54,588 nt of DNA, from contig PMLC01000135.1 of assembly GCA_003158745.1 (NCBI GenBank), positions 8,954-63,541 on the forward strand, in the 5' to 3' direction. Each line of letters opens with the position of its first letter. Positions within the stretch are counted from its first letter, which is position 1. Source of the DNA: Acidobacteriota bacterium. Lineage in GTDB: Bacteria; Acidobacteriota; Thermoanaerobaculia; Thermoanaerobaculales; Thermoanaerobaculaceae. The notes beneath the pieces were generated by a model. That model worked only from the letters and a program-made list of their open reading frames with translations. It had not been told where the DNA came from and did not search any database. A program made the translations under genes and the position numbers. Below, in pieces: positions 36,431 through 46,594 of the stretch.

Positions 36431-38578
36431 TCAGGACGTGCGCCGGAGGAACTCGACCAAACCCTCGCGGGGAAGGTCCACGGATAGGAACCAGCCTTGC
36501 CCGCAGGGACAACGGAGCTGGGTGAGCACGTCGGCCTGCGCCTGGTGCTCGATGCCCTCGGCAACGACCTCGATGTTGAGGCCGCGGCCGAGCCGGACGA
36601 TCGCCTGGACGAGTGCGCTCGCTCCCTTGTCGCTCGTAATTCCCTCGATGAACACCCGGTCGATCTTGACCATGTCGACGGGGAAGCGCCGGAGGTGCGC
36701 GAGCGAGGAGTAACCGGTCCCGAAGTCATCAAGGGCGAGCTTGATGCCCAGTGTCTTGAGGCGGTTGAGGATGAACGGGACCTTCTCCGTTTCGAGGAGG
36801 ATTGCTCCCTCGGTGATCTCGAGCACGAGGCGTTCGGGCTCGAGCCCCGTGCTTTGCAGGATCTCGGCCACCTCGTCCACCAGAGTGGCCTCCCGGAGAT
36901 GGGCCGGCGACAGGTTGACGGAAAGGAGGAAGTCGTCGGGCAACGCCGTCTCGCGGCGTAACTCCTGCAACGTCTCGCACGCGTGACGGAGGACCCATCG
37001 ATCGATCTGGACAAGGAGGCCCGCCTGCTCCGCGAGAGGAAGAAATGTCCCGGCGGGGAGCAGGCCCCGTAAGGTGTGCCGCCACCGAACGAGGGCCTCG
37101 ACTCCGATCGCGCGACCGTGGGCGAGCGAGAAGATCGGCTGGTAATGGACCGCGAGATTACCCTGCTCGACCGCACGCTTCAGCTCACCCTGGAGGTCGA
37201 GTCTCTCGAGCGCGTCGGCGTGCATCGTCTCCTGGAACACGACGATGCGGTCCTTCCCCTGGTTCTTGGCCACGTTCTTCGCGGTATCGGCGTCGCGGAG
37301 CAGGGCCTCGGCACTCGACGCGGTGATGCTCTCGATGGCGATCCCGATGCTGGCCCGGAGCCATACGCGTCTCTCGTCGATCGAGAAAGGCTCCGTGAAG
37401 AGGGCCATGATGCGCTCAGCCGCCGCGAATGCGTCCGAGGGCGAAGACACCTCCTCGACGAGGATTGCAAACTCATCCCCGCCGAAGCGGGCCATCGCAT
37501 CGCATGAGCGGACGCACCCTCGCAATCGGTCGGCGAACGCGATGAGGACCTCGTCGCCGGATGCGTGGCCCAGGCTGTCATTGATCAGCTTGAAGTCGTC
37601 GAGGTCTAGGAAGAGCAGCGCCACCAGCTGTCCCGGGCGCCGCCGGCGCGAGAGGGCGTGGTTCACCCGGTCGAGGAACAGGGCGCGGTTCGGGAGGTTC
37701 GTGAGCAGATCGTGCAAAGCCTGGTAGACGTTCTGGGAGGCGAGCAGGCGCTGCTCCTCGTACAGCCTCGCGTTGGCGATGGCGGTCGCGGCCTGCTCCC
37801 CGAACAGGCTCAGCGCCCGGAGCTGATGCTCGTTGTAGACTCGTCCAGCAACAGCGTTGACGTTGAGCACGCCGAGAAGCGTGTCGCGGTGGATGAGAGG
37901 CACCGACATCGAGCTCGCAGGCGGCTCGACCGGCCATCGAGCCGGATCGATGACGCCGGTGACGAGCACAGGCTCGCGCGTCTGGGCGACTCGGCCCGCA
38001 ATACCCTCCCCGAAACCGACCCTCGCCCCGGATGCTCCGCTGGAGCCCCAAACGCTGACGGTCCGCAACTCAGCACTGCCGTGCACGAGCATGATCGAGC
38101 CGTCGCGCGTCTCGAGAAGCTCGTGCGCGCACTCCAGAATGGTCTCGAGCACCTGCTGGAGGTCGAGGATCAGGTTCATCGCCTTGGCGGCTTCGAGCAG
38201 GGAGGTGACCTCGCGCAGGCGGTTGGTGAGCGCCGCCGTGAGGACACGCTCGTCCACTAGCAGCTTCGTCAGCCGGCGGAGCTGCAGTTCCTTTTCGATG
38301 GCGTACGCGCAGAAAAGCACCACGATGCCAAGGAGCCCGCCCTGCGCCGCAAATGGGGGGAGCCAGCTCGGCGATCGATAGTCCCGCCAGAGCGTGAACG
38401 TGACCAGTGCCACGACCACCGACAGGAACATCGATAGCGTCATGATCCACAGCTGCAGACGCCGTTGCTCCACCGCTTCTAGCGTCGGGGTCTCGAAGCT
38501 GCGGAGACCGGCGATGCGCGCGGCGCGCTCGGTGAGCTTCAGGTCAGGAGCGCTCTCTGGAGCGTTCACGTTCGGCAT
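36431..38578 (-). CDS. Membrane-bound GAF-GGDEF-EAL dual c-di-GMP enzyme
   Basis: 715 residues: two membrane helices (about 45-65 and 75-95), a coiled region, a GAF domain (about 130-285), a GGDEF domain (about 295-455) with intact GGDEF and an RxxD I-site (RSCD) five residues before it, and an EAL domain (about 475-710) with EALVRW, DDFGTGYSS and EVVAEGIEH intact. Both synthesis and hydrolysis of c-di-GMP are possible; which one dominates depends on the GAF signal. Near the end CPCGQGWFLSVDLP replaces the common QGYLFSRPLP and adds two cysteines. It is followed by the MFS gene. Regulation is not visible. Confidence 0.95.
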   Translation of the reverse strand: MPNVNAPESAPDLKLTERAARIAGLRSFETPTLEAVEQRRLQLWIMTLSMFLSVVVALVTFTLWRDYRSPSWLPPFAAQGGLLGIVVLFCAYAIEKELQLRRLTKLLVDERVLTAALTNRLREVTSLLEAAKAMNLILDLQQVLETILECAHELLETRDGSIMLVHGSAELRTVSVWGSSGASGARVGFGEGIAGRVAQTREPVLVTGVIDPARWPVEPPASSMSVPLIHRDTLLGVLNVNAVAGRVYNEHQLRALSLFGEQAATAIANARLYEEQRLLASQNVYQALHDLLTNLPNRALFLDRVNHALSRRRRPGQLVALLFLDLDDFKLINDSLGHASGDEVLIAFADRLRGCVRSCDAMARFGGDEFAILVEEVSSPSDAFAAAERIMALFTEPFSIDERRVWLRASIGIAIESITASSAEALLRDADTAKNVAKNQGKDRIVVFQETMHADALERLDLQGELKRAVEQGNLAVHYQPIFSLAHGRAIGVEALVRWRHTLRGLLPAGTFLPLAEQAGLLVQIDRWVLRHACETLQELRRETALPDDFLLSVNLSPAHLREATLVDEVAEILQSTGLEPERLVLEITEGAILLETEKVPFILNRLKTLGIKLALDDFGTGYSSLAHLRRFPVDMVKIDRVFIEGITSDKGASALVQAIVRLGRGLNIEVVAEGIEHQAQADVLTQLRCPCGQGWFLSVDLPREGLVEFLRRTS

Positions 38579-39287: not shown

Positions 39288-39498
39288 GCAGAGGAGCAGA
39301 GGGGAACGAAACCGTTCGGAGGTTCACACGTTCACAGGTTCGGACGCCAAGAGGTTCAACGACGCAGAGGGGCGGAGGAGCAGAGGAGAACTACACGACC
39401 GGTTTCGTCTCTCTCCTCTGCTCCTCAGCTCCCATGCACCTCTGCTGTTGTTTGGTCGAACCTTCGAGCCTTTGAACCTGCGGACTTTCGAACCTTCT
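39288..39498. repeat. 3'-end repeat B (long imperfect hairpin)
   Basis: Two arms of about 90 bp: the left arm (39288-39394) has units like AGGTTCACACGTTCACAGG and GGAGGAGCAGAGGAGA, and the right arm (39405-39498) carries their reverse complements (TCTCCTCTGCTCC, CGAACCTTCGAGCC, GAACCTGCGG). The right end touches the smpB stop codon. It is homologous to repeat A. Probably forms a long RNA stem at the 3' end of the smpB transcript. Confidence 0.8.
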
Positions 39499-39499
39499 G

Positions 39500-39946
39500 C
39501 TACCGGCGTTCCTTCATCGCCGCGGCGGCTTCGCGGTCGAGTGTCCTGCGCCTGATCGTCTCTCGCTTGTCGTGGAGCTTCTTGCCTCGCGCCAGCGCGA
39601 GTTCGACCTTGATCCAGTTGCCCTCGACGCCGATCGCCAGCGGTATGACGCTGAGGCCCTTCTCGGCGACCTTGCTGGCCAGACGGATGATGTCACGCTT
39701 GGTCATCAGGAGTTTCCGCCGTCGGGTGGGATCGTGATTCGCGTATCCGGCGTTCTCGTACGGCGCGATGTTCACGTCTGCGAGGAATGCCTCCCCGCCC
39801 TCGAACGCCACCCAGCCCTCCATGAGCTTGGCGTGCCCGTCGCGTATGGACTTCACCTCGCTACCTGTGAGGGCGATGCCTGCTGTGATCCGTTCGAGGA
39901 GTTCGTACTCAAAGCGGGCGCGCCGGTTGGTCGCGAGCAGCTTCAT
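39500..39946 (-). CDS. smpB: SsrA-binding protein SmpB
   Basis: 148 residues, the normal size. SmpB binds tmRNA and brings it to stalled ribosomes for trans-translation. Family phrases are clear: NRRARFEYELLERITAGIAL, GSEVKSIRDGHAKL, VNIAPYENAGYANHDPTRRR and KLLMTKRDI, LARGKKLHDKRETIRRRTLD. The ATG overlaps the stop of the upstream HD-GYP gene as ATGA, so its translation should be coupled to it. No ssrA gene is seen nearby. Downstream is repeat B. Confidence 0.98.
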   Translation of the reverse strand: MKLLATNRRARFEYELLERITAGIALTGSEVKSIRDGHAKLMEGWVAFEGGEAFLADVNIAPYENAGYANHDPTRRRKLLMTKRDIIRLASKVAEKGLSVIPLAIGVEGNWIKVELALARGKKLHDKRETIRRRTLDREAAAAMKERR

Positions 39947-41436
39947 GCGCGAACGACCTCGAGAAGGACGGGGATCAGCTCGGGGTCGAACTGGCGTCCG
40001 GCCTCGGCGCGGATGGCGTCCGCCGCAGCATCCCGGGTCACGGCCCGACGGTACGAGGACGGCGACGTGAGCACGTCGTAGACCTCGGCCAGGTGGATGA
40101 TCCGGCTCGGAAGGGGGATCATGGCCCCGGCGAGGCGCTGGGGGTACCCGGTGCCGTCCCAGCGCTCGTGGTGGTGGCGGATGGCACCCGCCAGGTCGCC
40201 GGGGAACTCCGCGGCCTCGACGATGCGCGCTCCGACGACGGGGTGCCGCTGGTAGAGGCGGCGCTCGGGTTCGCCGGGTCTGTCCATTCGATAGACGCGG
40301 GTGTAGTCCAGCTCCCGCATACCGACATCGTGGAGGTACGCCGCGACCGTGATTAGCTCTTCCTCGTCGGACGAGAGGCGGAGGGCGACCGCGAAACGCT
40401 GGGCGATCTCAGAGGTCGTCTGCGAGTGCTGGCGAAGGTTAGGGTAGGCGGTCTCGCCGGGCTCGAGAAGAACGTGCGCGAGGTTCCTCGCAGCCCTCCG
40501 GTAGTTCCGCAGGGCGGTCGCCAACTCGAGGTGGTGTAGCGCAGTCGCGAAGACGGCGTCACCCGAGGTCGTACCGGTCGGTGTGACGAGCGAGAGCGCA
40601 ACCCACACCGGCGGGCCGCTCAGAAGAACGGCGGTGCGTATCTCCTCCTGGCGCGTCTGGCTGCCGCCGCTGGGCTGTTCGTCCCACCCCCACCGCTCCG
40701 CCGGGGGCATGCGGACCCCAGACCCGAGGAGAGCGCGGGTCTGGTGCGTGGCCAGGGCCTCCCGGTGCTGCTGGTCGAGAGGGGTCGTCCGCAGGGCGAG
40801 GACGCGGGTGCTCCCTCCGTCCGTCAACGTCAGGGCCGCAACGGCCACGTCGGGGAGCCGGGCGAGGGATCGCACCAGGCCGGCGAGCTCCTCGATGACC
40901 CATCGGTGCGGGAGGGTAGGGCTGGCCCGCGGGGTGTCCGCGGCTATCGCCGGTGCGGGCTCCTCCTGAGCGCTCGCCGCTGTGCCGTAGGCACCCGAGT
41001 CCGCGAGGAACTGCTCCAGCTCTTGGCGGATGCTCTTTGCGATAGTGATGTCTTCGGGGCCGAAGAGTGCTTTGCGGGACTTGTCGCGCACGTCCACGAG
41101 TCCGACGAAGCGGTTGGCCACCGTGAGCGGAATCGTCAGCAGGCGGGATGTGCCGGCACTCTCAAGGTGCGTGTGCAGCGATGGGAACTCCTGCAGATCG
41201 TTGAGGTACGCGGGTGCTGTGCGCCGACGGCGAACCCAGTCCATCAGCGGATGGCCGAGAACTAGCGACTCAGGAACGCTGTCCCGCCGCCCAAAACCGT
41301 AGCTGGTTGCGAGGTTGAAATCGCCCTCCGGCCCTTCGAGGTAGAGCGCGGCCTTGGTGGCCTGGAGCTCCTCCATGCAGCGATAGAGGAGCTCCTTGGC
41401 GTTGCGCTCGTGCTCGGTATCCCAGGACAAAGGCAT
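39943..41436 (-). CDS. GAF/HD-GYP c-di-GMP phosphodiesterase-type protein
   Basis: 497 residues: an N-terminal GAF-like domain (about 10-150, GLVDVRDKSRKALFGPEDIT), a second less clear sensor-like region (about 180-320), and a C-terminal HD-GYP domain (about 330-495). The HD pair is His369-Asp370 (LHDVGMRELD, where HDIGK is usual), followed by HHHERWDGTGYP with Gly430-Tyr431-Pro432. These residues are those needed to hydrolyse c-di-GMP to GMP, so it is probably active. The frame is open far upstream as the shadow of lpxC; ATG 41436 gives a full domain. It is divergent from lpxC (141 bp gap with an inverted repeat) and overlaps smpB by ATGA. Confidence 0.92.
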   Translation of the reverse strand: MPLSWDTEHERNAKELLYRCMEELQATKAALYLEGPEGDFNLATSYGFGRRDSVPESLVLGHPLMDWVRRRRTAPAYLNDLQEFPSLHTHLESAGTSRLLTIPLTVANRFVGLVDVRDKSRKALFGPEDITIAKSIRQELEQFLADSGAYGTAASAQEEPAPAIAADTPRASPTLPHRWVIEELAGLVRSLARLPDVAVAALTLTDGGSTRVLALRTTPLDQQHREALATHQTRALLGSGVRMPPAERWGWDEQPSGGSQTRQEEIRTAVLLSGPPVWVALSLVTPTGTTSGDAVFATALHHLELATALRNYRRAARNLAHVLLEPGETAYPNLRQHSQTTSEIAQRFAVALRLSSDEEELITVAAYLHDVGMRELDYTRVYRMDRPGEPERRLYQRHPVVGARIVEAAEFPGDLAGAIRHHHERWDGTGYPQRLAGAMIPLPSRIIHLAEVYDVLTSPSSYRRAVTRDAAADAIRAEAGRQFDPELIPVLLEVVRA

Positions 41437-41465
41437 GCTGTTCCCGGCCGAAAGTCTATCACCTT

Positions 41466-41491
41466 GGTGTGTGGTGGCTGAGCCACACACC
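41466..41491. promoter_or_regulatory. Inverted-repeat site 1: GGTGTGTGG-N8-CCACACACC
   Basis: A perfect 9-bp inverted repeat in the gap between the divergent HD-GYP and lpxC genes. Its inner 12 bases are GTGTGG-N8-CCACAC, exactly the pattern found 1.16 kb downstream at site 2. It could be an operator for both genes, or a hairpin in either 5' leader. Confidence 0.65.
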
Positions 41492-41577
41492 GCTGCACCG
41501 ACGCCACAGCAAAGGTGTGCGGCGCAGCCTCCCAGGCTGGCACGTTTCTGGCTCTTCCGCGAGGTGGAGGCGTGTGA

Positions 41578-42492
41578 ATGGCCTGGCAAAAGACGGTTCG
41601 ACGAGCCGTGAGCGCGAATGGAGTTGGGATCCACGGGGGGAAACAGGTGGCTCTGCGTCTGCGCCCCGCCCCGCCTGGCACGGGCGTAGTCTTCGTCCGC
41701 ACGGACCTCGGCATCGCCATCCCGGCGAGGGCCGAGAACGCCCGCGACCTTGCGTACGCCACGACGTTGCGCCTGCGCGGTGCGGAGGCTCGCACCGTCG
41801 AGCATCTGATGGCGGCTGTGGGGGGGGTTGGCATAACCAACCTGTTCGTGGATCTCTCCGCTGCCGAGGTGCCGATCCTGGACGGCTCCGCGTTGCCGTT
41901 CGTCGAGATGATCCGGCGTGCCGGGTTCGTCGACCAGGGGGCCAGTTTGCCGGAGATGCAGGTGCGGCGGGTCGTCCGGGTCGGTGACAAGGAGCGCTGG
42001 ATCGAGCTGCGCCCAGCTCCGGAGCTGTTCGTAGACTACCTCGTCAGCTACGACTCGCCGGCGGTCGGGAGGCAACGTTTCGTTGGCGCGATCACGCCCC
42101 AGCGGTTCGCCTCCGCTATAGCCCCGGCGCGCACTTTCGGCTTCCTGGAGGAGGTGGCGTCGCTCCGCCGGCGCGGGCTCGGCCTCGGCGGTTCGCTCGA
42201 CAACTGCATCGTGGTGGATCGCGAGCGTATCCTGTCGGGCGATCTGCGGTTCCGCGACGAGTTCGTGCGCCACAAGGTACTCGACTTGATCGGCGACCTG
42301 GCCCTGCTGGAGTATCCGTTGCGTGCCCAGGTCGTGGCCCACAGGGCCGGCCACTCGCTGCACGTGGCCGTGGTGAACGAACTGCTTGCCAGTCCCGAGG
42401 CGTGGGAGCTCCTGGAGCCCGACCGGCTGGCGCCGCTCACGGTGCGGCCGTATGTCGGCGACTCGGAGCCCGAAGCCGTGGCCGCAAGCTGA
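41578..42492 (+). CDS. lpxC: UDP-3-O-acyl-N-acetylglucosamine deacetylase LpxC
   Basis: 304 residues. LpxC removes the acetyl group from UDP-3-O-acyl-GlcNAc, the first committed step of lipid A synthesis. Zinc ligands and catalytic residues are visible: His76 (TVEHLMAAV), His232 and Asp236 (RHKVLDLIGD) and His259 (AGHSLHVAV). The other LpxC signatures are NGVGIHGGKQV, LDGSALPFVE and FGFLEEV. ATG 41578 follows GGAGG. It is first in a plus-strand run with DUF4390, a kinase and an activator. Repeat C lies right after its stop, so the downstream genes may have their own promoter (site 2). Confidence 0.98.
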   Translation: MAWQKTVRRAVSANGVGIHGGKQVALRLRPAPPGTGVVFVRTDLGIAIPARAENARDLAYATTLRLRGAEARTVEHLMAAVGGVGITNLFVDLSAAEVPILDGSALPFVEMIRRAGFVDQGASLPEMQVRRVVRVGDKERWIELRPAPELFVDYLVSYDSPAVGRQRFVGAITPQRFASAIAPARTFGFLEEVASLRRRGLGLGGSLDNCIVVDRERILSGDLRFRDEFVRHKVLDLIGDLALLEYPLRAQVVAHRAGHSLHVAVVNELLASPEAWELLEPDRLAPLTVRPYVGDSEPEAVAAS

Positions 42493-42495
42493 ACG

Positions 42496-42625
42496 GCAGT
42501 TAACAGTTGACAGTTCACAGTTGACAGTCAGCAGTCCATAGCTGCGTCTCGTCTTTGTCTTTGGGTGGGTGGGAGACTGTCAACTGTCAACTGGAGGGAT
42601 GGGCGGGCGGAAACTGTCGACTGCC
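42496..42625. repeat. 3'-end repeat C (ACAGTTGACAGT hairpin)
   Basis: The left arm repeats ACAGTTGACAGT/TCACAGTTGACAGT (42500-42535), and the right arm has GACTGTCAACTGTCAACTGG and AAACTGTCGACTGCC (42574-42625), its reverse complement. The left end begins 4 bp after the lpxC stop. The same word is frequent between genes in several bacterial phyla, from memory. Likely an RNA stem at the lpxC 3' end. Confidence 0.75.
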
Positions 42626-42630
42626 GTCAC

Positions 42631-42650
42631 GTGTGGTACGATTGCCACAC
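42631..42650. promoter_or_regulatory. Inverted-repeat site 2: GTGTGG-N8-CCACAC
   Basis: A perfect 6-bp inverted repeat that ends one base before the ATG of the DUF4390 gene and contains a TACGAT -10-like hexamer in its spacer. It is identical in both arms and in spacer length to the core of site 1. There is no Shine-Dalgarno between it and the ATG. It may be an operator or a leader hairpin that controls the kinase operon. Confidence 0.6.
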
Positions 42651-42651
42651 T

Positions 42652-43152
42652 ATGATTCTGGCCGCGATCCTGCTGGCCGCGGCACCGATGTCCGAGCTCG
42701 ATGTGCTGCTGACACCGGCACCCGGGAGGCTGGCCGTCGAAGTCACGGTCAATCGGGAACTCCCTGCGGAGTGGAGCGAAGCCCTCTCGGCGGGCGCTCC
42801 CGTCAGTATCACCTACCGTCTGCGCCTGTATCGCAACCGTCACTGGCTTTGGGACCAGCGCGTGGCGGGCCACGAGCTGGTTGTCAAGGCGCAGCGCGAC
42901 CCACTGACCGGCGTGTTCACCCTCGTTGCGGAGCTGGACGGCGAGATCCTGGCATCCGGCCAGGTCGGGAGTCTCGACGAGGCCGTCCGTTGGGTGACGC
43001 ATCCCCCGAAGTCAGAGATCGCGGTTCCCTTGCACCGCGAGCCCCTCCTCCTCTTCCTGCGGGCCGAGTTCCTCACGCACTACAAGCTGCTGGTGATCCC
43101 GTCAACGGTCGGGACCGACTGGCTCGGCCTATCGGTGCCGGAGCTGCCGTGA
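42652..43152 (+). CDS. DUF4390 secreted protein, upstream partner of the NtrY-like kinase
   Basis: 166 residues with a very short hydrophobic start (MILAAILLAAAPMSELDVLL) likely to be a signal or anchor. DUF4390-like features: YRLRLYRNRHWLWDQRVAGH, VSLDEAV and PLLLFLRAEFLTHYKLL. DUF4390 genes usually lie immediately upstream of NtrY-type kinases, as here. The stop overlaps the kinase GTG as GTGA. It may be the periplasmic sensing partner. The ATG directly follows inverted-repeat site 2, without a Shine-Dalgarno, so the start is either leaderless or structure-controlled. Confidence 0.85.
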   Translation: MILAAILLAAAPMSELDVLLTPAPGRLAVEVTVNRELPAEWSEALSAGAPVSITYRLRLYRNRHWLWDQRVAGHELVVKAQRDPLTGVFTLVAELDGEILASGQVGSLDEAVRWVTHPPKSEIAVPLHREPLLLFLRAEFLTHYKLLVIPSTVGTDWLGLSVPELP

Positions 43153-45257
43153 GCGACTGGCGGCGGAGCTGGCAACGCTACCGGCGCCAGAACCGTTTCC
43201 TGGTGGGCCTGTACCTGCTCCTGCTGCTGCTCGCGGGGGCGGCCTACGCCCTCTTTTCCCGCATGGCTCGCCTGCCTGCTGAACAGTTCACCAACCGGTT
43301 GCTCACGTTCCTGTTGTGGTGGTTTGACCTCACGCTGATCGCCATCCTGCTCTTCATTCTGCTGCGGAACTTCTTCAAGCTGGCGCTCGAGCGGCACTAC
43401 GGGATCCTCGGATCGCGCTTCAGGACGAAGCTCCTGCTCTCCTACCTCGTCGTGATCCTGGTGCCCACCGCGCTGCTTTTCCTGCTTTCCGCCGGGCTGC
43501 TCTCGGGGGCGGCGAAGGCTTGGTTCTCGGAGCCGGTCGAGCGCATGGCTAGTGCCAGCGTCGAGCTCTCGGACGCCGTACGGGCCCAGGCGGAGGCGCG
43601 CACGATGCGCGCTGCCGGAGTGATCGCCGACCGTCTTCAACGGATTGCGAGCGAGCCCGGTCGACTGTCGGAGCTGGAGCGTCTACACGCGGAGCTCGGG
43701 GACCACCTCACCGGCCTGCTCCAGGGTGGGATCCCGGTCGTGGAGTTTGCGGATCCTCGCCAGCGGTTGCTCCAGAGGTTGCCGCCGCTGCCGCCGGAGG
43801 CGTTCAGAGTGGATGGCGTGCGTGGCGAGCGCTTCGGCGGGACACTGGTGGTGCGGGCATGGAAGCGACTGCCGGACAGGTTTGCGGTGCTGGTGGGCGA
43901 GGCGCTCCCCGAGGAGCTCGTGGCGGCGCAGGCACGCCTCGCGGCTGGCGGCGTCGCCTACGAACGCCTCAAGATGGAACGCCCGACGATCACCGCCACC
44001 GTGGTGCTCGGTTTCGGTGGCCTCGCATTGATCGTGGCTTTCGGAGCGATCTGGCTCGGTTTGTACCTCTCCCGGCGCTTCACTGCGCCGCTTGTCGCGC
44101 TCGCGGCGACGACTCAGAGGATTGCCGGAGGCGAGTCGCTCGAGACCGTGCCCCTCCCGGCCGAGGACGAGGTGGGGATGCTACTCGGCTCGTTCAACTC
44201 GATGGTCCAGCGTCTGAGCCAGCGCGAGAACGAGCTGAAGTCCGCGGTCCACCGCTTGGACGCGGTGCTGGGAGCGGTGCGCACGGGCGTGCTGACACTC
44301 GACGCGCAGCGGGAACACGTAGCCGGCAACCCGGCGGCGGCCGCGATGCTGGGCGTACCAGAGCTCGCGACCGGGGAGCTTCCCCTCGAGGCCCTGGCCG
44401 TGGCAGGCCTGCCGCGCCTGGTGGAGACCATCCGCACGGCTGAGGGAGCAGTGCGTGGATCGCTCACCATCTACCCGGGAGAAATCGCGCGGCACCTCGA
44501 GATGGCGCTCGTGCCGCTCGGTGACCCGACGCGGCCGGAAGGGTGGGTTGTGGCTTTGGAGGACCTCACGCAGCTGCTGCGCGCCCAGCGGCAGGCGGCG
44601 TGGAGTGAGGTGGCCCGGCGCATCGCCCACCAGATCAAGAACCCGCTCACGCCGATCCGGCTCGCGGCGGAGCGCATGGCGCGGCAGGTCGAGCGCGGCA
44701 ACCTAGACATCGAGACGATCGTCACGCAAGGGAGCCAAGCGATTGTGCAGCACGTCCAGGCGATGCAGGAAATGGTCGACAGCTTCGCGCGCTACGCCAA
44801 GATGCCACCGCTCGCGAGGAGGCCGGTGCCGATCGGCGAGCTGGCCCAGCAGGCCGTGGCGCTCTACCAGGGTGTCCGAGAGGGCCTTTCGATCGTGCTC
44901 GCCGACGGCTCGCATGGGATGAACGTCCTGATCGACCCGGAGCAGTTCCGCCAGGTCCTGACAAACCTCATCGACAACGCGGTCGAAGCTTCGCCTGCGA
45001 ATGGAGTGGTCGTGGTGGGGATCGAGAGGGAAGCGGACGAGGTGGTGGTCTCGGTGACGGATGAGGGCCCGGGGTTGCCGATGGAAGATCCGGAGGTGCT
45101 CTTCCAACCGTTCTACTCGACGAAGGGGAGGGGCTCGGGGGTGGGCCTCGCGATGGTGCAGAGGATAGTCACCGACCACGGTGGGACGGTGAGGCTGGAG
45201 CCCAACGAGCTTCACGGAGTGCGGGCGGTGGTGCGGATTCCGGAGGGCGAGGCGTGA
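43149..45257 (+). CDS. NtrY-like membrane sensor histidine kinase
   Basis: 702 residues with several membrane helices (about 20-40, 55-75, 95-115 and 280-305), an extracytoplasmic region between the third and fourth, HAMP (about 305-355), a PAS-like domain (about 365-470), HisKA and HATPase. The phospho-acceptor is His494 in EVARRIAHQIKNPLTPIRL. N box NLIDNAVEAS, and G boxes DEGPGLP and GRGSGVGLAMVQRI are intact. The architecture matches NtrY (nitrogen/envelope-responsive kinases). Start is GTG 43149, which overlaps the DUF4390 TGA. It is coupled by GTGA to the response regulator. Its position next to lpxC suggests an envelope-stress role rather than nitrogen. Confidence 0.93.
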   Translation: MSDWRRSWQRYRRQNRFLVGLYLLLLLLAGAAYALFSRMARLPAEQFTNRLLTFLLWWFDLTLIAILLFILLRNFFKLALERHYGILGSRFRTKLLLSYLVVILVPTALLFLLSAGLLSGAAKAWFSEPVERMASASVELSDAVRAQAEARTMRAAGVIADRLQRIASEPGRLSELERLHAELGDHLTGLLQGGIPVVEFADPRQRLLQRLPPLPPEAFRVDGVRGERFGGTLVVRAWKRLPDRFAVLVGEALPEELVAAQARLAAGGVAYERLKMERPTITATVVLGFGGLALIVAFGAIWLGLYLSRRFTAPLVALAATTQRIAGGESLETVPLPAEDEVGMLLGSFNSMVQRLSQRENELKSAVHRLDAVLGAVRTGVLTLDAQREHVAGNPAAAAMLGVPELATGELPLEALAVAGLPRLVETIRTAEGAVRGSLTIYPGEIARHLEMALVPLGDPTRPEGWVVALEDLTQLLRAQRQAAWSEVARRIAHQIKNPLTPIRLAAERMARQVERGNLDIETIVTQGSQAIVQHVQAMQEMVDSFARYAKMPPLARRPVPIGELAQQAVALYQGVREGLSIVLADGSHGMNVLIDPEQFRQVLTNLIDNAVEASPANGVVVVGIEREADEVVVSVTDEGPGLPMEDPEVLFQPFYSTKGRGSGVGLAMVQRIVTDHGGTVRLEPNELHGVRAVVRIPEGEA

Positions 45258-46594
45258 GCCACGGGAGCATCCTTGTCGTCGACGACGAACGGGGGATTCT
45301 CGAGCAGTTGGGGGGGATCCTGCGTGACGAGGGGTTCGCGGTGACGGCGGTGCCGTCCGGCGAGGAGGCGCTCACGGCCGTCTCGCGCGAGCTGTACGAC
45401 TTGATCCTGCTCGACGTCGCACTCCCCGGCATGGACGGTATCGAGGCGCTGCGCCAGATGCGCTCGTCCGGGCAGGGAATGCCAGTCGTCATGATCTCCG
45501 GCCACGCCACCGCGGAGCAGGCAGTGCGCGCCTTGAAGGAAGGGGCGGTCGACTTCCTGGAGAAGCCCCTCGCACTCGAGCGAGTACTCCTCACGGTGAG
45601 TAACACCCTGGCGCATGCGCGCCTCGAGCAGCAGCTCCTGGTCGAGCGCGAGGAGGAGGGACCTTCGCTCACCGGCGTGTCACCGGCGATCGTGGAGCTG
45701 CGGCGCCAGATCATGCTCGCCGCCCCCACCGACTCTCGGGTGTTCATCACGGGTCCCAACGGTGCCGGGAAGGAGGTCGTGGCGCGCCAACTGCACCACT
45801 ACTCGCGCCGCTCAGCCGGACCGTTCGTGGCCGTCAACTGTGCCGCGATCCCCGCAGAGCTCATCGAGAGCGAGCTGTTTGGCCACCTGAAAGGGGCTTT
45901 CACCGGCGCGGTGGAGAGTAAGCGAGGCAAGTTCGAACTCGCCGACGGCGGCACCCTCTTCCTCGACGAGGTCGGCGACATGAGCCTCCTCACCCAGGCC
46001 AAGGTGCTGCGCGTGCTGCAGGAATCGCGTTTCACCCGTCTGGGGGGGGCACACGAGGTGCGGGTGGACGTTCGGGTTGTAGCCGCCACCAACAAGAACC
46101 TCGAGGACGAGATCGGAGGAGGCCGGTTCCGGCAGGACCTCCTCTTCCGCCTCAACGTGATCCCCATCAGGGTGCCGTCCGTCAGGGAGCGGCCGGAGGA
46201 CGTGCCGCTGCTCGTCCAGGAGTTCATGCTCCGGTTCGCCCGGCGTGTCGGCGCCAGGCCCAAGCTCGTGACTCCGGGAGCCATGGAGGTCCTAAAGTCG
46301 CACTCCTGGCCCGGCAACGTGCGCGAGGTCCGCAACGTGGTCGAGCGCCTCATGATCATGGTGGCCGGCGATGAGATCACCCCGGCTGTCCTGGATCTCC
46401 CTGCCGGTGCGGTGGCCGTTACGGGGGGCGCCATGACAACGCTCAGGCAGGCGCGTGAGCTTTTCGAGCGGGAGTACATCGCGAGGGTCGTGGGCTCCTG
46501 CGGCGGCAACATGTCCCGGGCCGCGCGGGTGCTCGGTCTCGAACGCTCGCACCTGTACCGCAAGCTCCGCGCCCTCGGTTTGCGCCCGCGTTGA
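45254..46594 (+). CDS. NtrC-family sigma-54-dependent response regulator
   Basis: 446 residues: receiver domain (phospho-acceptor Asp54 in LILLDVALPGMDG), AAA+ sigma-54 interaction domain with Walker A GPNGAGKE (GESGTGKE is usual), GAFTGA at 214-219, and Walker B GGTLFLDEV, then a Fis-type helix-turn-helix (about 410-443, NMSRAARVLGLERSHLYRKL). GAFTGA means it can drive sigma-54 promoters. Start is GTG 45254, overlapping the kinase stop. It is the likely partner of the kinase. No clear -24/-12 element was seen in the immediate upstream region of lpxC. Targets are unknown. Confidence 0.95.
   Translation: MSHGSILVVDDERGILEQLGGILRDEGFAVTAVPSGEEALTAVSRELYDLILLDVALPGMDGIEALRQMRSSGQGMPVVMISGHATAEQAVRALKEGAVDFLEKPLALERVLLTVSNTLAHARLEQQLLVEREEEGPSLTGVSPAIVELRRQIMLAAPTDSRVFITGPNGAGKEVVARQLHHYSRRSAGPFVAVNCAAIPAELIESELFGHLKGAFTGAVESKRGKFELADGGTLFLDEVGDMSLLTQAKVLRVLQESRFTRLGGAHEVRVDVRVVAATNKNLEDEIGGGRFRQDLLFRLNVIPIRVPSVRERPEDVPLLVQEFMLRFARRVGARPKLVTPGAMEVLKSHSWPGNVREVRNVVERLMIMVAGDEITPAVLDLPAGAVAVTGGAMTTLRQARELFEREYIARVVGSCGGNMSRAARVLGLERSHLYRKLRALGLRPR

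Follow-up and report, generated by a model that had tools for sequence, protein, structure and literature searches.

Conserved palindromes flanking lpxC in an acidobacterium are putative operators of an NtrX-like sigma-54 regulator

Known regulators of lpxC and related two-component systems

The lpxC gene codes for the enzyme of the committed step of outer-membrane lipid A synthesis. Among the described systems, the closest is that of Desulfovibrio vulgaris DVU2934, an NtrC-family regulator with the GAFTGA motif, which was found by DAP-chip and EMSA to bind a single target, lpxC (DVU2917) (PMC3333781, PMC4641369). The DVU2934 operon also encodes a histidine kinase and an HD-GYP protein (PMC3333781), the latter of which hydrolyses c-di-GMP (PMC4114195). 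Apart from D. vulgaris itself, only two Desulfovibrio have the validated DVU2934 motif upstream of lpxC; the remaining genomes with an ortholog, Acidobacterium capsulatum among them, were found to lack it there (PMC3333781). The acidobacterial locus described here likewise combines an NtrC-family GAFTGA regulator, lpxC as its predicted target, and a kinase and an HD-GYP protein encoded nearby, a likeness in regulator type, target and gene context. It differs in that the regulator gene adjoins lpxC, is accompanied by a DUF4390 gene, and has the same site on its own promoter.

In Rhodobacter sphaeroides, the lpxC transcript changes upon deletion of ntrYX; the effect is repressive and was judged to be indirect, as no NtrX site was found at lpxC, while other envelope genes are direct targets (PMC7240162). 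The NtrY/NtrX family is shared with the present locus, where, in contrast, a candidate site lies directly at lpxC together with a sigma-54 promoter and sites are not in excess elsewhere. At glnA, enteric NtrC acts from tandem palindromic enhancers on a sigma-54 promoter, and the same regulator represses sigma-70 promoters. The tandem palindromic enhancer design probably recurs here, with a different motif (TGTGG-N8-CCACA), target and kinase. Bordetella PlrP is a DUF4390 protein that has been proposed as the third component of NtrYX systems, restraining the phosphatase activity of the kinase (PMC13001219). As in PlrP-PlrS-PlrR, the DUF4390 protein of the present locus is encoded directly 5' of an NtrYX-family pair; unlike it, the Bordetella system is tied to rsmB and trkAH, with no link to sigma-54 or lpxC in the text of PMC13001219. 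Finally, a sigma-54 type promoter has been predicted for lpxC of Leptospira (PMC12655853).

Two identical palindromes flank lpxC

The window, i.e., the whole stretch of 54,588 nucleotides that was analysed, carries the gene order SmpB, GAF-HD-GYP (divergent), site 1, lpxC, site 2, DUF4390, NtrY-like kinase, NtrX-like regulator, TPR protein and glycosyltransferase (Table 1). Sites 1 and 2 have identical arms and an identical 8-bp spacing with unlike spacers, just as the sequence-only reading had described them, and the core of site 1 sits within a perfect 9-bp repeat (41466-41491).

Table 1. Features of the lpxC region in window coordinates
Feature	Position	Strand	Evidence or remark
GAF-HD-GYP protein, divergent neighbour	39943-41436	-	PF13487, E=6e-32; possible secondary target
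Extended -10-like element of the HD-GYP gene, TG-A-TAGACT	41453-41458	-	conserved in relatives
Site 1, inverted repeat GTGTGG-TGGCTGAG-CCACAC	41469-41488	.	candidate enhancer/UAS of lpxC
CCACAG half site	41504-41509	.	follows the right arm of site 1 after 21 bp, about two helical turns
Predicted sigma-54 -24/-12 promoter of lpxC, TGGCACG-TTTC-TGGCT (TGGCACGTTTCTGGCT)	41538-41553	+	score 20.5 of 21.5
lpxC, UDP-3-O-acyl-GlcNAc deacetylase, 304 aa	41578-42492	+	PF03331, E=1e-93; TIGR00325 above cut-off
Site 2, inverted repeat GTGTGG-TACGATTG-CCACAC	42631-42650	.	overlaps the DUF4390-ntrY-ntrX promoter; candidate auto-operator
Extended -10-like element within site 2, TGG-TACGAT	42637-42642	+	9 bp before ATG
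DUF4390 protein, signal-peptide-like N-terminus	42652-43152	+	PF14334, E=7e-13, above cut-off
NtrY-like membrane sensor histidine kinase (HAMP, HisKA, HATPase)	43149-45257	+	domain search
NtrX-like response regulator (REC, AAA+ with GAFTGA, Fis-type HTH)	45254-46594	+	PF00072, PF00158, PF02954

The exact pattern GTGTGG-N8-CCACAC occurs twice in the 3,735,526-base genome, at sites 1 and 2 only, and the reversed control pattern has no exact match; the motif is hence neither frequent in coding sequence nor scattered at random positions. With 5-bp arms there are three sites against five for the reversed control, the third of which (G000:C52:32909) falls within long ORFs and was set aside, and with one mismatch allowed there are 73 against 182. 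As about 0.4 occurrences per genome would be expected from the composition of the window (68% GC), two exact sites in neighbouring gaps are unlikely to be a product of chance, in agreement with the earlier estimate; the decisive evidence, however, is their conservation.

Short repeats of other kinds are also seen in the region. The gap between lpxC and DUF4390 (42497-42620) contains several short ACTGTCAACTGT-like copies in both orientations, and the same gap at two related loci (L068 and L069) has similar short repeats with other letters (e.g., GAGTTAAGAGT); this gap seems prone to acquiring them. Another intergenic stretch of the window, at about 39440-39500, has low-complexity repeats of the AACCTTCGAACC type.

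Conservation of the sites

Our sample of the class comprised 37 orthologous lpxC loci, scanned up to 230 bp upstream and up to 420 bp downstream of the gene. TGTGG-N8-CCACA is present upstream of lpxC in 19 of these (25 under a relaxed pattern permitting one variant per arm) and downstream of it, before the DUF4390-ntrYX operon, in 20 (22 relaxed), counts that do not represent independent events since the loci are kin; at between a third and a half of the class loci, these patterns recognise no site. Exact arms separated by N4-N7 or N9-N12 are absent from the 37 loci save for a single N5 match upstream, and eight control palindromes of the same design yielded no match at the same loci. Beyond the class, the scan covered 20 loci of other Acidobacteriota (by record name Acidobacteriaceae, Terriglobia, Pyrinomonadaceae and others), 12 of which have the upstream site.

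Closer to home, both sites lie at the same two places in another eight genomes of the genus and in three of a sister genus if arm variants are allowed, the sole exception among close relatives being an lpxC/HD-GYP gap without site 1 (L064 in G008). Both sites recur while the flanks and the site 1 spacer diverge among relatives, and site 2 is kept in 12 of 12 close relatives although its upstream flank does not align. Thus, where the sequence-only reading would have been undermined by absence of the motif from orthologous gaps, alignment with related genomes finds it there, and we conclude that sites 1 and 2 are real, non-random, conserved regulatory sites.

Across 61 genomes, the motif with 6-bp arms has 32 occurrences, of which 22 by our own count adjoin the lpxC/DUF4390 locus; the other ten do not exceed the total of 16 for the reversed control. 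A large regulon was rejected, there being no excess of sites away from this locus, and the scans yield lpxC and the regulator's own operon as the only targets predicted from sequence.

Two lineages depart from the common arrangement. In Rokubacteria, the gene order and the sigma-54 promoter are kept and the TGTGG-N8-CCACA motif was not found; the lpxC upstream regions there (L121, L146, L191) have a palindrome of another kind, TGTCTCATAAACGAGAC or one close to it, along with sigma-54 promoters at -37 to -39, and this palindrome may be a candidate operator of the adjacent regulator in those genomes. In genus g6 (L098 in G015 and L100 in G013), the lpxC at this place is strongly diverged (32-36% identity), with DUF4390, NtrY and NtrX retained, as is site 2 beside DUF4390; decay or a changed function of this lpxC copy is possible.

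A sigma-54 promoter and putative enhancer at lpxC

The sigma-54 promoter beside lpxC was not part of the sequence-only reading and is added by the present analysis. We took as a match a score of at least 18.5 of 21.5 within 120 bp. Such an element precedes lpxC in all 37 orthologs, as compared to a background of 163 of 6930 stretches drawn at random from these loci (2.4%) and 250 of 7400 shuffles. It has the -24 GG/-12 GC of the consensus TGGCAYG-N4-YYGCW, and rpoN is present in this genome (G000:C157) as well as in the genomes of 57 of 60 relatives. None of the other genes tested in the window is preceded by such an element, most gammaproteobacterial lpxC genes score lower in the same kind of scan, and a clear sigma-54 promoter was not found at several lpxC loci of other Acidobacteriota (L120, L124, L141, L160, L178, L179).

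Within the family, 58-70 bp separate the centre of site 1 from the -24 GG downstream of it; in most other families, the distance is about 92-121 bp. Between site 1 and the promoter, CCACA is found at the place of the half site in 11 of 12 aligned upstream regions, at a spacing of 19-21 bp as counted by eye, and the half site is probably the second, weaker dyad of a tandem UAS. With dyad-symmetric elements, namely site 1 and this second half site, lying upstream of a sigma-54 promoter, site 1 is best read as a putative enhancer of that promoter.

The DUF4390-NtrY-NtrX operon and its promoter

The DUF4390 gene lies directly 5' of the NtrYX-family pair and overlaps the start of the kinase gene. 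The best NCBIfam match of the kinase is the Leptospira LIC_11548 family kinase, below cut-off. In the regulator, a receiver (REC), an AAA+ sigma-54 domain containing GAFTGA and a Fis-type HTH are combined; its best NCBIfam match is NtrX (NF051870) with 464 bits against an equivalog cut-off of 600, so that it is termed NtrX-like rather than filed as NtrX. Among solved chains, 5m7n is nearest to it. All six tested genomes with this lpxC locus also have a close NtrX ortholog (E <= 1e-115), which is absent from 11 of 12 tested genomes without the locus. The order lpxC-ntrY-ntrX is conserved in the class and also occurs at some loci of Rokubacteria, Deltaproteobacteria and Magnetococcales. In other Acidobacteriota classes, a TGTGG-N8-CCACA-type site was looked for near the best NtrX homologs or before ntrYX and was not found; thus, autoregulation appears limited to the class. 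The recognition helix, (G)(L/I)ERSHLYRK, is almost unchanged in Rokubacteria, which lack the motif, and there is no clean co-variation of helix and motif.

At site 2, TGGTA is invariant in 22 of 22 relatives, with the spacer opening with TA in all of them and usually running on to a T at its sixth base. With the extended -10-like element so close to the ATG, the DUF4390 transcript is predicted to be nearly leaderless. A sigma-70 consensus scan of 39400-45300 found no promoter, and both extended -10 elements are therefore defined by conservation only. A regulator bound to the site 2 dyad would exclude polymerase, which makes autorepression the natural reading, with the direction of control being inferred.

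The HD-GYP neighbour

In 11 of 12 close relatives, the lpxC alignment has AGT(C/G)TA-N-CA on the plus strand, i.e., TG-n-TA(G/C)ACT on the minus strand, at the HD-GYP promoter, the predicted -35 of which falls within site 1 in this genus. A side effect of site 1 on the HD-GYP gene is hence possible. Nevertheless, site 1 stays with lpxC where the divergent neighbour is not HD-GYP (families f7 and f8: L080, L084, L085, L088, L092, L095), which identifies lpxC as the conserved target. The sequence-only reading had a single regulator, possibly the NtrC-like protein encoded here, controlling c-di-GMP turnover, lipid A synthesis and its own operon. Of this, the regulator itself, whose best match is NtrX, most likely acts at lpxC and its own operon, and these two targets are supported; c-di-GMP turnover as a primary target is not, since the upstream site follows lpxC and not HD-GYP.

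Near the HD-GYP gene, a GAF-GGDEF-EAL-like protein was recognised by eye from its translation (36431-38578, minus strand), so that lpxC has genes for two likely c-di-GMP enzymes no more than about 5 kb away.

Proposed circuit and alternative explanations

We consider it likely that both sites are operators of the NtrX-like regulator, mediating sigma-54 activation of lpxC and negative feedback on its own operon. The role of this regulator is supported by the conservation and synteny of the sites, the sigma-54 promoter of lpxC, the GAFTGA motif and the co-occurrence of NtrX with this lpxC locus. In the circuit that we infer, with NtrX as the binder, activation at site 1 and repression at site 2, the signal would pass from the NtrY-like kinase, of which the DUF4390 protein is the probable periplasmic partner, to the NtrX-like regulator by phosphorylation. 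Site 1 and the weaker dyad next to it would then be bound by the phosphorylated regulator and serve as its upstream enhancer, and its GAFTGA AAA+ domain would open the sigma-54 promoter for lpxC expression. On site 2, the regulator would cover the extended -10 element and bar the housekeeping polymerase, thereby repressing its own synthesis.

Most of the residual doubt about the binder concerns another DNA-binding protein, encoded elsewhere, to which the sites might belong, the adjacency of NtrX being incidental. Other Acidobacteriota that keep the lpxC site have ntrX elsewhere without a site of its own, and Rokubacteria keep lpxC-ntrYX and the sigma-54 promoter without the motif, both of which would fit such a protein. 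However, sigma-54 promoters require an AAA+ activator, and the local one carries GAFTGA and is found together with the locus; site 2 falls on the promoter of this very regulator; and DVU2934 offers a precedent, so that we regard a foreign binder as unlikely. Slightly less so, but still improbable, is that the NtrX-like regulator binds both sites and activates its own operon from site 2. Response regulators often activate their own genes, and sequence does not reveal in which direction control runs; against this positive autoregulation, the -10 element lies at the middle of the dyad, as is typical of repression, and no -24/-12 element precedes DUF4390 (best score 15.5).

That the repeats act as RNA hairpins, be it as attenuator, terminator or by sequestering the start codon, is very improbable. 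Site 2 does fold beside the start codon, with -22.9 kcal/mol for 56 nt (z = -3.0), but an lpxC transcript begun at the predicted sigma-54 start, which is downstream of site 1, would not contain that repeat. Moreover, the arm variants are mostly one-sided and break pairing (TGTTG/CCACA or TGTGG/CAACA at L071, L072, L073, L076, L077, L078 and L082), with one two-sided case (L074); the TA that opens the site 2 spacer is invariant; and no T run follows either repeat. A hairpin is rejected for site 1 and considered unlikely for site 2. Almost no weight attaches to a chance repeat or a dispersed repeat element. Short palindromes do arise randomly, at the expected rate given above, but the positions are the same in several families of the class and also in classes other than this one, and there is no further excess of sites genome-wide; counts at orthologous loci, of spacings and of control motifs rule both out. 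The NtrX-like regulator acting at lpxC and on its own operon thus remains our preferred reading.

A receiver-LpxC fusion in the same group

The other lpxC of this genome (L259:6958-8418, minus strand; G000:C159) encodes an N-terminal receiver fused to LpxC (PF00072 and PF03331). The fusion keeps the phospho-acceptor motif and is also found in the other 22 examined loci of families f1, f2 and f4 (L257, L258, L269-L288), an assignment based on Pfam in two, the receiver motif in most, and the span of protein matches alone in three; in G004, G007 and G022, the missing REC motif is ascribed to the way the ORFs were delimited, as tblastn matches span the receiver region. This genus has REC-LpxC as a second lpxC; in several relatives without the sigma-54 lpxC locus, no other lpxC was found. 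The fusion loci include every tested genome without the NtrX ortholog except G009, in which no lpxC was found. Two-component control of LpxC in this group may hence be exerted either transcriptionally or by direct fusion. That lineages without the first of these designs depend on the second is a tentative proposal, for which we see the chances as a little short of even.

Implications

Proteolysis in E. coli is the best-studied control of LpxC. Two-component effects on lpxC appear in the available part of one review (PMC12444477) only as those of broad regulons, with no dedicated system in that part. Dedicated control of lpxC by an NtrC-family regulator was already known from Desulfovibrio; what is new is a deeply conserved arrangement of regulator and candidate operators at lpxC. 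With a concrete conserved candidate operator, a sigma-54 promoter and a named regulator, the question becomes testable with one protein and two DNA probes. The locus also places DUF4390 beside an NtrYX-type pair outside Proteobacteria, and it favours the view that the bacterial exterior is under sigma-54 control (PMC3162934).
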